NCBI GenBank assembly: GCA_002404095.1
Contig: DHJA01000085.1
Span: 129,234-149,817, forward strand
Source of the DNA: Planctomycetaceae bacterium UBA4732
GTDB taxonomy: Bacteria > Planctomycetota > Planctomycetia > Gemmatales > Gemmataceae
Length of the DNA stretch: 20,584 nt
Direction of reading: 5' to 3'
The position numbers were made by a program, and so were the translations under genes. Under the pieces are notes generated by a model, which saw nothing but the letters and a program-made list of their open reading frames with translations, was not told the origin of the DNA and made no database searches. Below are positions 7,593-13,763 of this stretch, one piece after another (positions within the stretch are counted from its first letter, which is position 1; every line of letters begins with the position of its first letter).

Positions 7593-8276
7593 TTAAGCAT
7601 CGCCTTCATCGGAAAGGACATCGGCGAAGTGGAAACCGTCTCGCTCGATGCGCTCTCCGACGCGGCACGGGATGGACCGGGTGAACATCGGCCCGGCGTG
7701 ACAGAAGGTGTGGAACTCGCCGCGCTCCCCGCACGGGTCCACGCTTGAGGGGAGGTCGGCAAGGAGTTCCGCGTCAAAGTCACGGCCCGTAAACCGGCCG
7801 TCGAGTTGTTTCGGATCAACACAGGTGAGAATAGCCTGGAGGCCGGCGGCGATCATTTCTCGCGCGAGGAGCGGCGTGTTCGCGGGGTCGCCCCACAAGG
7901 GAAAGATCGGCTCTATCCCAGAGCCTGCCAGCTGACGCACCCGGTAAGCTCGGATGTCTTCCAGAAACAGATCGCCGAATGCGAAACGGCTGACTCCTTC
8001 CCCGCCGGCCTTCTCGATCACTTCTCGCATCCGGCTCTCATACTCTTCGTTCGAGCAGGGCCAAGGCAGTGCCACGGGCCAAAGCGGCAATCCGGCAGCC
8101 TGGGCCTGCGCCTCGACCAGTTCGCGGCGAACCGCGTGCATAGCAACCCTCCCGGCAGCCTCATTAAACGTCGTCATCAGGCCGACCACCTCCACTTCGG
8201 CTCGCTGACGCAAGACGTGGAGCGACCAGGCGCTGTCCTTACCGGAACTCCAAGAGAGCAACGCTCGCGGCTTCAC
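7593..8276 (-). CDS. COG2102/DUF71 ATP pyrophosphatase (B12-linked subgroup)
   Basis: Adenine-nucleotide alpha-hydrolase fold of the Dph6/diphthine-ammonia ligase family, 227 residues. The PP-loop SSGKDS (10-15) binds ATP and GEFHTF (186-191) is the family's C-terminal signature; WGDP and TCVDP segments also fit. Eukaryotic and archaeal members make diphthamide, but bacteria lack diphthamide. Published comparative genomics assigned a bacterial subgroup of COG2102 to B12 salvage. Placement here in a cobalamin-riboswitch operon supports that subgroup; the reaction is unproven. The start is GTG, overlapping the TGA of the BtuF-like gene by 4 nt (GTGA) with GGAGG just upstream, so the two are translationally coupled. 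comEC follows. Confidence 0.88.
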   Translation of the reverse strand: MKPRALLSWSSGKDSAWSLHVLRQRAEVEVVGLMTTFNEAAGRVAMHAVRRELVEAQAQAAGLPLWPVALPWPCSNEEYESRMREVIEKAGGEGVSRFAFGDLFLEDIRAYRVRQLAGSGIEPIFPLWGDPANTPLLAREMIAAGLQAILTCVDPKQLDGRFTGRDFDAELLADLPSSVDPCGERGEFHTFCHAGPMFTRSIPCRVGERIERDGFHFADVLSDEGDA

Positions 8277-9223
8277 GGAATTCCTCCGGCGATGTCTACG
8301 ATCCTCTTCGCGTCAGCGATGCGAGTGGCGGGCTGTAGTCGATGCGGCAAGGGATGGAAGTTGGGATGCAGGGCGTGGGCCAGGATTTCCAGACTATCCA
8401 CAAGGCGCGGACCGGGTCGGCTGAAGTAGGCCGAGCCATCGACGACGTAGACTCGCCCGTCGCGCACACAAGGCAAATCGTCCCAACCCGGATACGAACG
8501 CAGAATCGGCAGGTCTTGCATCGTGCGACTCTCGGTAAAGCCGCAACAGGCGATAAACAACGCCTCCGGCCGCCAGTCGCAAACCTCTTGCCAGTTCAAA
8601 CTCCGTGACGGGCGCCCTTCTTGTCCCAATCCTTCGACGCCGCCCGCCAGTCGGACCAGTTCGGGACTCCAGTGACCGCATGAGAAAGGCGGGTCGATCC
8701 ATTCAAGCAGCGTCACCCGAGGCCGACGCCGCAACACTTTTGTCCCCTCGGCAACCGCTGCCACGCGAGCCTCCAGGCGTCGAAGGACTCTGGCCGATTG
8801 GCGTTCGACGCCCGCCGCGGCCGCGACCTGTCGTACCGTCGCGAATACGTCGGCAAGCGTCAGCGGTTCCAGGTTGACGACGCGCGGCCGGCCGGGCAAT
8901 GCGCAGGCCGCGGCCCGTACTTCCTCCTCGGCCACGGCACAGACATCGCACAGAGTCTGGGTAACGATCAGGTCCGGGCGCAGCGATTGCAAAATCGGCA
9001 GGTCGAGGGTGTAAAGCGCTCGCTGCGTCTTCAGCCGCTCGCGGACGAGGCGGTCGATTTCGGCGCTCGGCGCGTCGTGGGGAATTAGGGTTTGGGTGAC
9101 TTTCGGCAGGTCAAGGACGTGGGGAGGAAAGTCACACTCATGGGTCACGCCAACGAGCTTGTCTCGAAGCCCGAGGGCGCAAATGATCTCAGTCGCACTT
9201 GGCAACAGTGACACGATTCGCAT
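8273..9223 (-). CDS. BtuF-like cobalamin-binding protein without signal peptide
   Basis: Periplasmic-binding-protein fold of the BtuF/FecB class (COG0614), 316 residues. The first strand, MRIVSLLPSATEIICALGL, is the usual start of the mature domain and begins directly at the initiator Met: there is no signal peptide or lipobox. GVTHECDFP, then PDLIVTQTLCDVCAV, then WSPELVRLAGG (~185-195) and PGWDDLPCVRDGRVYVVDG follow the order typical of these corrinoid-binding proteins. The ATG has a GGGGGA ribosome binding site. It sits 16 nt after the ECF S gene and overlaps the DUF71 gene by 4 nt. No BtuC permease or BtuD ATPase is adjacent. It may therefore work in the cytoplasm as a corrinoid carrier or sensor rather than in import; that is inference. 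Confidence 0.88.
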   Translation of the reverse strand: MRIVSLLPSATEIICALGLRDKLVGVTHECDFPPHVLDLPKVTQTLIPHDAPSAEIDRLVRERLKTQRALYTLDLPILQSLRPDLIVTQTLCDVCAVAEEEVRAAACALPGRPRVVNLEPLTLADVFATVRQVAAAAGVERQSARVLRRLEARVAAVAEGTKVLRRRPRVTLLEWIDPPFSCGHWSPELVRLAGGVEGLGQEGRPSRSLNWQEVCDWRPEALFIACCGFTESRTMQDLPILRSYPGWDDLPCVRDGRVYVVDGSAYFSRPGPRLVDSLEILAHALHPNFHPLPHRLQPATRIADAKRIVDIAGGIP

Positions 9224-9239: not shown

Positions 9240-9836
9240 CTATTCCCAGACTCGGGCGAGCGGCCGCGCACGAAGCGCGGGGATTGCCCGCGTCAACAGT
9301 GCGAACCCGCCGAACAGGGCCGTCGAATAGGTGAGGTCGCCCAGGAGCGTCCAATGGAAGAACGGAATCGCCATTGTGTAGCATTCCATAAGGCCCGCCG
9401 TCGTCTTCGGGTATCCGTGAGGGAACGGCGCATTGGCGGAAAGCGCCCAGACGGCGAAGTTCGTGACCAGAAAGAACACGACCGAACTGGCGAGTACGGC
9501 GCCGGCCACCGGCATCGGGCGGACCCGTTGTCTGAGCCACAACCCCATACCTGCGATCAAGGCGAACGTCCCGTAGACCACCCACATGAGCGAGTGAAAA
9601 CCCCAAGCGGGCGACAGGCCAAGCCGGTAGAGAATTTCCAGGGCTGAATCACTCAACAGCATGGCCGCGAGCGGGACCACGAGTGCCTTCCACTTCCGAT
9701 CAAAGTAGGCTGAACCAAACAAGGCGATCGCAGTGATGGGAGCGAAGTTGGGCGGGTGGGGAAGAAGGCGGCTCATGGCCGCCAACAGAATCATGATGGC
9801 GAGAACGGCAGCGCGAGGCGCGACAAGGGAACGCAT
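9240..9836 (-). CDS. ECF-type transporter S component, DUF6580-like (putative corrinoid uptake)
   Basis: A 198-residue integral membrane protein with about six hydrophobic helices. Segments typical of DUF6580 proteins are visible: RLLPHPPNFAPITAIALFG near the N-terminus, FFLVTNFAVW in the middle, then YPKTTAGLMECYTMAIPFF and LLGDLTYSTALFG. These proteins resemble the substrate-binding S subunits of energy-coupling-factor vitamin transporters. As first gene after a cobalamin riboswitch it is a good candidate for corrinoid or corrinoid-precursor uptake. No EcfA/EcfT genes are nearby, so a shared energising module elsewhere would be needed. The ATG has AAGGAT 8-9 nt upstream. The next gene starts 16 nt after its stop. 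Confidence 0.8.
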   Translation of the reverse strand: MRSLVAPRAAVLAIMILLAAMSRLLPHPPNFAPITAIALFGSAYFDRKWKALVVPLAAMLLSDSALEILYRLGLSPAWGFHSLMWVVYGTFALIAGMGLWLRQRVRPMPVAGAVLASSVVFFLVTNFAVWALSANAPFPHGYPKTTAGLMECYTMAIPFFHWTLLGDLTYSTALFGGFALLTRAIPALRARPLARVWE

Positions 9837-9935: not shown

Positions 9936-10155
9936 GATGCTTGAGGCCGAAGCATCACAACGCGAGCTCAAGAGGCAGGTCTTCTGGCTTTCGGCTTACA
10001 ACATTCCTCGAACGGCCTTCCCGCCTTGGTCTCCGAAGAAACTTCGACAGTGGCTTTGCGGGTTCAAGGAACTAGCCGATCACAGCGGCGGCCCCGCAAC
10101 GGATTTGCACCGTTTTCCCTTTTCACCGCGGGCCAATGGCCAGCGCGGCACCTAT
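9936..10155 (-). promoter_or_regulatory. Cobalamin riboswitch
   Basis: Minus-strand leader of the corrinoid operon. Elements appear in the standard order: 5' GGTGCC, AAAAGGGAA, GGTGCAAATCC, the GCCGCTGTGA-like segment (GCCGCCGCTGTGA), AGCCACTG, GGCGGGAAGG, and the 3' B12 box AGCCAGAAGACCTGCCT (~9973-9988 region). Just downstream is a 7-bp hairpin, GATGCTT/AAGCATC (9936-9956), whose loop CGGCCTC can pair with GGGGCCG (10089-10095) in the L5 region. This is the L5-L13 kissing loop expected of cobalamin riboswitches. It ends ~100 nt before the first gene. Adenosyl- or hydroxo/methyl-type selectivity cannot be settled by eye. In this family, ligand binding normally lowers expression. Confidence 0.95.
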
Positions 10156-10167
10156 TGAGTTAGGGGT

Positions 10168-10195
10168 ATTGTTGGAAATCCCTCGAAGTTTTCAA
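10168..10195 (-). promoter_or_regulatory. Predicted promoter of the cobalamin-riboswitch operon
   Basis: On the minus strand TTGAAA (10195-10190) and AACAAT (10173-10168) are separated by 16 nt. Transcription would start around 10160, just before the first riboswitch element. The position is well suited, but the -10 match is only 4 of 6. Its -35 overlaps that of the divergent amidase promoter candidate. Confidence 0.4.
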
Positions 10196-11930: not shown

Positions 11931-12488
11931 TTACGCCTTCCTTCGCAGCATCCGGCCGCAGCCGAGGATGCCTGCGCCGCCGATCAACAGCAGCGCCGCC
12001 GAGGACGGCTCCGGCGCGACGGCGGCGGAGGCCGACGCGCCAATGAGCTTGCCGGCCGCTTGAGTAGGGTGTACAGCGTCGAAGAAAAGGAAGCCGTCGG
12101 CGAAAGCGCTGTCGGGACCGCCCGGCGCGAAGAGGATCGCCGGCGCCGTCACATTCGTCAGCCCATAGCTTGTTGGGTTCCCTATTACGCTCTGAAATAG
12201 GCCGAAGGCGTCGAGCCGGTGAAGCTGCACGTCCGGGTTCGCCGCCTGAATCTGGCCCAGATCCGCGGCAAGTTCCAGGTTGAAGCCGGCCGTCAGCAGC
12301 TTGAGGCCAGCCTGGGCCGTCAGTCCCTCACTTTGGCCGAGCGGCGTCTGGTCGAGCGACGGCAGGTTGGCGACGAGAAAGTTCTTCGCGCCCTTGCTGA
12401 TGAGCGTTTGGATGTCGGCCTTGAGGTTGTCGGCCGGGATCAGCGGGTTGGTTTGTCCGTCGAAGAGGTCGTTGGCCCCAGCCCAAAT
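11931..12488 (-). pseudogene. C-terminal remnant of a PEP-CTERM GDSL/SGNH hydrolase
   Basis: About 185 residues in one frame, beginning abruptly at IWAGANDLFDG, which is block III (GxND) of GDSL/SGNH esterases. DAVHPT, the catalytic Asp/His block V, follows near the end. The C-terminus APEPSS, a hydrophobic helix and RMLRRKA form a PEP-CTERM sorting signal recognised by exosortase in the envelope. Everything upstream, including the GDS nucleophile block and the secretion signal, is missing. The open frame extends to 12554 only by chance through the adjoining integrase remnant. Without nucleophile or signal peptide it should be inactive. Full-length relatives are ~300 residues or more. Confidence 0.8.
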
Positions 12489-12489
12489 C

Positions 12490-12615
12490 CTCGACGCTCT
12501 GTAGCTTGGTCCGGGCCTTTGTCTCGTTGCGTTCGAGCTTGACCTGATGTCCATCGATGGTGCTGTACCAGTACCCGTTAGATTTGCGGAACCAGAGATC
12601 GCTGGGGCGTGGCAT
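12490..12615 (-). pseudogene. 5' fragment of a planctomycete-type integrase gene
   Basis: From ATG 12615, preceded by a good ribosome binding site (GGAGG, ~9 nt), the frame reads MPRPSDLWFRKSNGYWYSTI, then DGHQVKLERNETKARTKLQ. This matches the N-terminal strand-rich arm-binding segment of tyrosine recombinases common in planctomycetes (WFR...W.ATI.G....L pattern). After ~40 residues the similarity ends where the GDSL remnant begins, in a different frame; the integrase frame then runs meaninglessly to a stop at 12328. The intact 5' end and lost catalytic domain point to a deletion or recombination junction at ~12488-12500. The family call is from pattern memory over a short stretch. Confidence 0.6.
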
Positions 12616-12649
12616 GATGGGATTCCTCCGCTCTGGGGCCTTCACGACG

Positions 12650-12685
12650 GCACGGGAAAAATACCGTGCAATACCGTGCAATACC
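12650..12685. repeat. 10-bp phased direct repeats upstream of the integrase remnant
   Basis: The unit ATACCGTGCA occurs twice in tandem (12661-12680), followed by a partial ATACC. Each copy carries CCGTGC, which is also complementary to GCACGG at 12650-12655, so a small hairpin can form with either copy. One unit per helical turn, 35-65 nt before the integrase ATG, is what an operator for a repressor or excisionase could look like. No regulator is identified. Confidence 0.5.
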
Positions 12686-12706
12686 CACATGATACGGAGG
12701 AAAAGC

Positions 12707-12952
12707 GGGGCGGACCTCAGCGTACTGGGTTTCTCCAGCCCCGGATCGGGGGTACGACTCCGTGCGAGCTTCCTGTCGCCGTAAGTCGCGGGACGGACGG
12801 GCTCTTCGCCTCAATCTGTCCCTTCGGCAGAGCAGCCGACTGACGGGTGTTATCCCATCAGACCTGTCTCTTTGCGTCGCCGCCTCGCGGCGGTTATGCC
12901 CTTTCGAGGATGAAAGGCGTTGTGATCCGGGCAAGACGCTTAGGTCCGCCCC
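12707..12952. repeat. 17-nt long-range inverted repeat enclosing a structured region
   Basis: GGGGCGGACCTCAGCGT (12707-12723) pairs with ACGCTTAGGTCCGCCCC (12936-12952) with one mismatch, enclosing 212 nt. Inside are several further hairpins: CTGG/CCAG (12725-12738), CCCCG/CGGGG (12739-12751), TCGGC/GCCGA (12824-12839), CTGA.GGG/CCC.TCAG (12840-12861), CCGCC/GGCGG (12880-12893) and CCTTTC/GAAAGG (12900-12917). On the minus strand the CCGCC stem is capped by a GCGA (GNRA) loop, suggesting that strand is the functional RNA. No coding potential is convincing across 12616-13034. Confidence 0.7.
12820..12917 (-). promoter_or_regulatory. Candidate c-di-GMP-I (GEMM-I) riboswitch
   Basis: Minus-strand order of elements: P1 CCTTTC (12917-12912), core GGGCATAACC (12901-12892), a helix CCGCC-GCGA-GGCGG with GNRA loop (12893-12880), the hallmark CGACGCAAAG (12879-12870), AGGTCTGATGGG (12865-12854) with its paired partner CCCGTCAG, then GGCTGCTCTGCC (12837-12826) and P1 3' strand GAAGGG (12825-12820). 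GEMM-I aptamers have AGGGCA-AACC, a GNRA-capped helix, GGGACGCAAAG, GG-YCTAA and a G/C-rich 3' helix in the same order, and similar length (98 nt here). Deviations: one extra T in the GGGCA-AACC core, and a fully paired P3 instead of a clear 11-nt tetraloop receptor. The next start codon downstream is the integrase remnant, ~200 nt away. Confidence 0.6.
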
Positions 12953-12956
12953 CAAA

Positions 12957-13018
12957 GCCGTCACCAAAACTGACGGCCTCGTTTGCTGACCAACTCTAGG
13001 ACGCGATGTGCACTAGAG
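12957..13018. other. Two hairpins downstream of the YHS-protein gene
   Basis: GCCGTCA/TGACGGC (12957-12963 with 12971-12977, 7-nt loop) and CTCTAG/CTAGAG (12994-12999 with 13013-13018) lie within 80 nt after the stop of the minus-strand YHS protein gene. On the minus strand the first is followed by CTTTGG. They may end that transcript and insulate the riboswitch-like region, but neither has a good U-tract. Confidence 0.35.
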
Positions 13019-13034
13019 CAAATCAACGGCGCCG

Positions 13035-13763
13035 TCATTTATCGTTTTCTTTTTCCTTCGCCTTCCGCGCCTCGTACTCCTTGATGTACTTCTCCGGAGT
13101 GTCATTGAAGGCGTCGCGGCAGCCGGTGCAGCAGAAATAGTACGTTTTGCCCTTGTAATTGGTGGTCATCGTGCCGTGACCGCCGCTGACCACGCATTCT
13201 GGCCCATCGTCAGCCGCCGCGAAAGACTCTCCTTCCTTCGTGGCGCCGACCTGATAGACGGAGGTGAACGTCGAATGGTCGGCGGCCTTCACTTCATAGC
13301 GGTATAAGTAGCGGTTCGGATGCAGCAGGCTGAGTACCACTCGTTGCGTCTCGCCGGTTTTTTCGTCGGCGCGGTCCATCGTTAGCCGGCGTTCCTTTAG
13401 CGTCCCTGCAAATTGAAGCGCATCCTTGGCCGGCGTGTGTAGCGTGAGTTGATAGCGGTCGCCGTCAGGCAGATAGCGTAGTTCGCCGGCGGTGAAGTAT
13501 TTACCTTTGGTGAAAGTGGCCTGGAGCCAGGCGTCGTCGGCCTTGAACTGCCACTGCCAGGCAATCGTTTCCTGCCAGAAGCCTCGTTGCTTCTCCTCGC
13601 GCGTGCCGTTCGGCTCGCCGGAGCCGCGCCACGAACCGATGAGGTCGTTGAACGCCTGCAACGCCTCTTTCGGCGAACGCTTCGGAACGTCGTCGGCCCC
13701 CACCGCGCCGACAGGCGCCAGGACGGCCAGCAACAAGGTCCAGAGAACGCATGGACGGGGCAT
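13035..13763 (-). CDS. Secreted DUF1579-like protein with C-terminal YHS/TRASH domain
   Basis: 242 residues from ATG 13763, which has AAGGA ~8 nt upstream; upstream in-frame starts to 13901 lack one and would bury the signal peptide. Residues 1-23 (VLWTLLLAVLAPVGAVGA) form a signal peptide. Residues ~30-175 look like a lipocalin-like beta sheet resembling DUF1579: LIGSWRGSGEPNG, WQETIAWQWQF, GKYFTAGELRYLPDGDRYQLTLHT. Residues 188-232 are a YHS/TRASH metal-binding-type module with Cys190, then YKGKTYYFCCTGCRDAF (Cys211, 212, 215) and a P-x-x-Y-I ending. YHS modules are associated with heavy-metal handling; no metal gene is adjacent. It is divergent from the FHA regulator across 128 nt. Role unknown. 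Confidence 0.82.
   Translation of the reverse strand: MPRPCVLWTLLLAVLAPVGAVGADDVPKRSPKEALQAFNDLIGSWRGSGEPNGTREEKQRGFWQETIAWQWQFKADDAWLQATFTKGKYFTAGELRYLPDGDRYQLTLHTPAKDALQFAGTLKERRLTMDRADEKTGETQRVVLSLLHPNRYLYRYEVKAADHSTFTSVYQVGATKEGESFAAADDGPECVVSGGHGTMTTNYKGKTYYFCCTGCRDAFNDTPEKYIKEYEARKAKEKENDK

Follow-up and report, generated by a model that had tools for sequence, protein, structure and literature searches.

Riboswitches for c-di-GMP are mainly known as gene leaders; this position is usual for them and is not part of the Rfam model. The nearest functional parallel to the RNA described here, likened to it by description, is merRNA of Bdellovibrio bacteriovorus, a bacterium of another lineage. 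In the accessible part of its publication, merRNA is a 445-nt non-coding RNA with a c-di-GMP riboswitch and no conserved downstream ORF, it is proposed to be a c-di-GMP reservoir, and no evidence is reported for its conservation outside Bdellovibrio (PMC3627812). It is the one case of a free-standing c-di-GMP riboswitch found in the literature searched. A second parallel is given by EutX and Rli55, sRNAs with a cobalamin riboswitch that controls termination, where the accessible part of the source states that the sRNA sequesters EutV (PMC7602753). The likeness here lies in a riboswitch that governs a trans-acting RNA, whereas the ligand is cobalamin, the switch acts on termination and the target is EutV. 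No title among the matches listed for searches on c-di-GMP riboswitches, planctomycetes, GEMM-I and Gemmata, which covered few subscription journals, concerned the RNA described below, and the accessible parts of PMC2864571 and PMC10482364 contained nothing on it. Riboswitch work on planctomycetes was likewise not found among the literature matches listed.

We analyzed a stretch of 20,584 nucleotides of planctomycete DNA (the window). A preliminary description had proposed a c-di-GMP-I riboswitch on its minus strand, and this candidate is confirmed as a good sequence match to the c-di-GMP-I aptamer. When the whole window was searched with cmscan, the Rfam model RF01051 matched 12910..12823 on the minus strand with 54.2 bits (E 2.6e-8; gathering score 35 bits), and the match covers model positions 1-87 of 87. 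All of the motifs that had been listed are there, namely GGGCATAACC, a GCGA (GNRA) loop, GACGCAAAG and GGTCT. The P1 helix had been given by end points and as "6 bp, one G-U", with no letters; we assigned it on that basis to CCUUUC (12917-12912) and GAAGGG (12825-12820), both of which are present and fit. In a permissive scan of 12640-13040, the best member of the same clan was the variant c-di-GMP-I-GGC (RF03167), whose 46.8 bits lie below its own cut-off of 59. The alignment columns that we read, by the Vc2 numbering, as the ligand contacts G20, A47 and C92 are invariant in all 16 loci of the alignment described below, the window included. In the accessible part of PMC4744006, the ligand contacts of Vc2 are given as G20, A47 and C92.

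The window aptamer thus resembles an ordinary RF01051 riboswitch in its score above the gathering cut-off and in the invariance of the columns read as contacts. It differs in that it is part of a larger RNA that covaries and has a promoter motif of its own, and in that this RNA does not lie ahead of any gene common to most loci. The aptamer looks like the core of an RNA of about 290 nt that extends from about 12986 to 12700 on the minus strand, with ends that we infer. Transcription would start near 12986, judging from the position of the −10 element. Neither the scan of the window nor the permissive scan of 12640-13040 placed any Rfam family over the flanks of the aptamer. The parts of the RNA and its upstream region are as follows.

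13016..13021, minus strand: −35 element TTGCTC of a TTGC-N16..18-TAnnnT motif
12993..12998, minus strand: −10 element TAGAGT, with a 17-nt spacer to the −35 element
12953..12981, minus strand: 5′ hairpin of 11 bp with loop GUUUUGG; two-sided changes in 11/11 pairs among 16 loci
12936..12952, minus strand: 5′ arm of the closing helix; two-sided changes in 14/15 consensus pairs
12925..12931, minus strand: 5′ strand CCCGGAU of the second long-range helix; two-sided changes in 7/7 pairs
12900..12917, minus strand: CCUUUC-AUCCUC-GAAAGG hairpin of the alternative fold, which takes up the 5′ strand of P1 and a ligand-contact G
12823..12910, minus strand: c-di-GMP-I aptamer (RF01051, 54.2 bits)
12790..12822, minus strand: hairpin 3′ of the aptamer, formed by GGGAC..GUCCC around an inner GGC/GCC; it cannot coexist with P1
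12740..12746, minus strand: 3′ strand AUCCGGG of the second long-range helix, pairing with CCCGGAU
12725..12738, minus strand: small 3′ hairpin CUGG/CCAG; two-sided changes in 4/4 pairs
12707..12723, minus strand: 3′ arm of the closing helix, pairing with 12936..12952
12701..12704, minus strand: short U tract (4 U) past the closing helix, the likely 3′ end

The aptamer subgroup to which the window copy belongs, which we call class A, was defined by reading the flanks. Its surroundings are alike in 16 loci from 16 genera, the window included; 15 of these loci belong to the family of the window and one to a second family of the order. We built a covariance model (R1) of the core from the 16 sequences, which it therefore matches by construction. 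With R1, 49 loci scored at least 100 bits in 48 of 95 genomes of the family, so that the RNA is near single copy, and one further locus was found in a sister family (102 genomes of the order). Outside the order, no locus reached 100 bits in 397 genomes of the class, a sample of a larger group, the best score being 88.9; the threshold lies in the gap between 102.6 and 88.9 among the listed scores. Searches of more than 40 genomes used stricter filters, by which weak matches are lost. The counts below over 48 loci refer to 51 loci minus three (G044, G078 and G079) that had no anchor. Two loci occur in one genome, G052, and the second of them has neither the promoter motif nor the CCUUUC strand. 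A scan of named genomes for the 19-base class A core gave 33 loci, of which 31 bear names of planctomycetes, among them Gemmata (such as Gemmata sp. IIL30), Gemmataceae, Isosphaera and Singulisphaera, and one belongs to Devosia. We estimate that a collection of this size yields a few matches by chance. Judging by these names, the family is presumably Gemmataceae.

Conservation of the RNA extends well into its structure. The RNAalifold consensus of the 16 full-length class A sequences has 73 pairs, 52 of which have changes on both sides, and 90.8% of the consensus cells are paired, compared with 76.9% in shuffled alignments. The covariation score is 0.481, compared with 0.216 in the shuffles, and on none of five measures did any of the 500 shuffles reach the observed value. 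When the consensus partners were slid by 1-3 columns, 34-49% of the cells were paired. All of these values come from a consensus derived from the alignment used to score it, which favors it. Outside the aptamer and the hairpins adjoining it, the structure has four helices: the 5′ hairpin, the closing helix, the second long-range helix and the small 3′ hairpin. Conservation and covariation of helices in relatives, on which the preliminary description had let its candidate depend, are present in the flanking helices of the 16 loci.

An exchange of closing arms between loci provides a check that is independent of the alignment. Among the 16 loci, arms from the same locus paired with a mean of −35.0 kcal/mol and exchanged arms with −25.1 kcal/mol; the cognate arm ranked first in 12 of the 16 rows, and none of 20000 permutations was as good. 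With 48 loci the corresponding means were −37.9 and −28.4 kcal/mol, again with 0/20000 permutations, and the cognate arm was best of its row in only 16/48 loci, probably owing to the similarity of arms among loci of one genus.

In the window, the closing arms form a 17-nt inverted repeat (12707-12723 and 12936-12952) that flanks the aptamer with 94% complementarity and that the preliminary description does not mention. An inverted repeat around an aptamer could also be the terminal repeat of a MITE-like mobile element. However, the element is near single copy in other genomes, and its arms vary in sequence from genome to genome but stay complementary, which leaves this explanation hardly tenable. 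We rejected it: the genome of the window has one full copy, and a partial match of 56 bases lies at another aptamer.

Of the 48 class A loci, 43 have a promoter motif of the form TTGC, 16-18 nt, TAnnnT at a distance of 95-125 nt ahead of the aptamer anchor, and in 40 of these 43 the spacer is exactly 17 nt; the other five loci lack the motif. Shuffled upstream regions contain the motif in 0.45% of cases. Class A RNAs would accordingly be transcribed from a sigma-70-type promoter of their own. The other end is less clear. A run of at least four T residues occurs somewhere 85-175 nt past the aptamer in 30/48 loci, and given this proportion and the shortness of the U tract in the window, termination is uncertain.

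The genes next to the RNA change. An all-against-all comparison of the neighbors of the 16 loci, within flanks of about 8 kb at most, found them mostly unrelated; a few other protein families recur at scattered distances. No downstream gene is common to most loci, either in this comparison or in tblastn searches of the 48 loci. A downstream gene was called in 43 of the 48 loci, on the same strand in 26 and on the opposite strand in 17, by crude gene calls, some of which on the same strand begin inside the RNA and are doubtful. Class A RNAs thus combine, like merRNA, a c-di-GMP aptamer with the lack of a conserved downstream ORF, with the reservation that one secreted-protein family adjoins the RNA in 6/48 loci (tblastn), five of which have it downstream in the same direction. 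Proteins of this family (for example, at L084, L085 and L088) are apparently secreted and have internal repeats. The family may be an ancestral neighbor, and its presence beside the RNA in 6/48 loci makes a role in cis possible in some genomes. Of all the results, this one speaks most strongly against a gene that is purely free-standing.

These neighbors bear on a reading of the RNA as a cis-acting riboswitch in which the long closing helix and a U tract form a terminator ahead of the next gene. Some loci do have a U tract past the closing helix, 26 of the 43 downstream gene calls share the strand of the RNA, and five of the 48 loci have the secreted-protein family downstream in the same direction. 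Nevertheless, with 17 of 43 downstream genes on the opposite strand and with differing families, the architecture and the promoter motif are kept, and we regard a terminator of this kind as distinctly unlikely. The same 17 opposite-strand genes speak against the control of a downstream gene that the preliminary description had envisaged.

That description had further suggested that the aptamer was stranded in a degraded mobile or PEP-CTERM locus, or that it controls a short chimeric transcript. A gene that looks truncated does lie downstream in the window: the GDSL lipase at 11931-12554 on the minus strand matches only profile positions 82-205 of 208, its start being missing, and its PEP-CTERM-like tail scores 19.7 bits, slightly short of the cut-off (20.7). 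The claimed truncation of a PEP-CTERM hydrolase is in this respect borne out, while the integrase remnant that was said to precede it (12328-12690) matches no Pfam family. A stranded riboswitch is nonetheless very improbable, because the whole RNA is kept in other genera, where it stands beside other and mostly unrelated genes, and because the window copy retains the consensus elements. Of the earlier interpretation, then, the identity of the aptamer stands, and the stranded and chimeric-transcript readings are not supported. The window copy may still be read through into the GDSL/PEP-CTERM and integrase-like fragments downstream. The PilZ-like gene noted elsewhere in the window is real, with a PilZ domain (PF07238) at 84-428 on the plus strand.

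The only other Rfam match over its cut-off in the window is a cobalamin riboswitch at 9957-10170 on the minus strand (95.7 bits). It lies upstream of a DUF6580 gene (9240-9836, minus strand), which is followed by a gene for a PF01497 periplasmic binding protein (8273-9223, minus strand).

Given the promoter motif, the covarying structure and the changing neighbors, the class A RNA is probably a free-standing RNA gene. Our main reading, to which we assign a probability of roughly 0.6, is a gene for a free-standing RNA of about 290 nt with a central aptamer, most likely a c-di-GMP-gated regulator acting in trans.

The suggestion of gating comes from the helices around the aptamer. Two P1 pairings are possible, one being CAUCCU/GGGAUG with outer CGCC/GGCG and the other the CCUUUC/GAAGGG helix that fits the preliminary description. 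The latter is 97.9% paired in the 16 loci including the window, with covariation in 0/6 pairs, so that covariation neither supports nor rejects it. Only 4/6 pairs of CAUCCU/GGGAUG are present in the window, and together with the outer part this P1 exhibits weak covariation, in one of ten pairs, which belongs to the outer part. The competing CCUUUC/GAAAGG hairpin is nearly invariant and for this reason covaries little; in two loci of one genus, each of its sides is longer by one base.

Nucleotide 258 is common to two mutually exclusive helices, since it would pair with 95 in the outer P1 and with 264 in the alternative hairpin. We located the three positions by text pattern and not by alignment column, and two of the 48 loci are unreadable at 95. 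In the 46 readable loci, the pair 95-258 is G-C in 19, A-U in 19, G-U in 8 and A-C in none; these counts are of sequences and not of independent events, with 13 of the 19 A-U pairs coming from one genus and 4 from another. The pair 258-264 is U-A in 23 of the 48 loci, C-G in 18, U-G in 5 and C-A in 2. That two exclusive helices co-vary through one nucleotide suggests a switch gated by c-di-GMP. In silico, the best fold of the window RNA with no ligand is the alternative fold (−147.2 kcal/mol); with P1 forced, the energy is −135.8 kcal/mol, so that for the window copy, whose P1-forced energy alone is used here, the alternative is better by 11.4 kcal/mol. The CCUUU stem is present in the best fold of 39/44 class A loci folded.

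The exclusive helices also bear on the idea that class A RNAs are a reservoir or sponge, i.e., an abundant RNA that stores c-di-GMP and has no target of its own. The closed structure, the promoter motif and the absence of a neighbor common to most loci are all consistent with it, and the proposal made for merRNA in the accessible part of PMC3627812 provides a precedent. However, an RNA that did no more than store c-di-GMP would have no need of folds that exclude each other, and covariation is seen on two such helices. A reservoir therefore appears unlikely.

If the class A RNA is instead a gated regulator, the closing helix between its two ends would hold the molecule together. With c-di-GMP bound, P1 would form around the aptamer, either from CGCC..UCCU with GGGA..GGCG or from CCUUUC with GAAGGG. 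Without c-di-GMP, the 5′ strand would enter the local CCUUUC/GAAAGG helix, which would bury the ligand-contact G, and the 3′ strand would enter the GGGAC..GUCCC hairpin. The most likely use of such a switch would be the c-di-GMP-gated regulation in trans of an mRNA or a protein, through the parts that refold or through the loop of the conserved 5′ hairpin. We infer transcription, ligand binding, the direction of the switch and any target from sequence. The fuller proposal of a conserved Gemmata-type RNA family in which c-di-GMP flips the RNA between two folds, and thereby gates its effect in trans on a protein or on mRNAs, is tentative, and we place it slightly below even odds. A conserved, covarying RNA gene that is shared by 48 of the 95 genomes of this planctomycete family would make the role of a riboswitch RNA without a downstream gene directly testable, and it would add an RNA regulator to the planctomycetes.

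We now note properties of other c-di-GMP-I aptamers. RF01051 matches occur in 29 of 41 genomes, counting that of the window, which itself has five aptamers over the cut-off (6.8 Mb in 299 contigs). By eye, other subgroups look like ordinary leaders, and they precede, for example, what we take to be a Flp-pilin-like or a protease-like gene. In the aptamers L005, L039, L040, L054, L058 and L066, GCCAAACC or GCUAAACC replaces GGCAAACC, and ACGGAAAG or GCGGAAAA/G replaces ACGCAAAG, so that the two sides at the base of the first helix change in step. These six aptamers apparently lie ahead of genes for secreted proteins, again by eye.

Another subgroup, class B, is represented in the genome of the window by L001 1501-1598 and L004 849-945, and there are like loci in relatives. 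In class B, the aptamer is followed by GGGATGGACGGGACC or a close variant of it, and this in turn by a hairpin that resembles a terminator. Of 12 loci inspected, 7 have the next gene call on the opposite strand; class B may be a further free-standing RNA. The L004 copy has changes at conserved places (GACGCCAAG and CUCCCAGCU) and adjoins what appears by eye to be an IS transposase; it may have arisen by duplication of the L001 copy and now be decaying. Finally, L042 has two aptamers 870 bases apart on one contig that are identical in sequence and have identical leaders, and the pair is apparently a tandem duplication.
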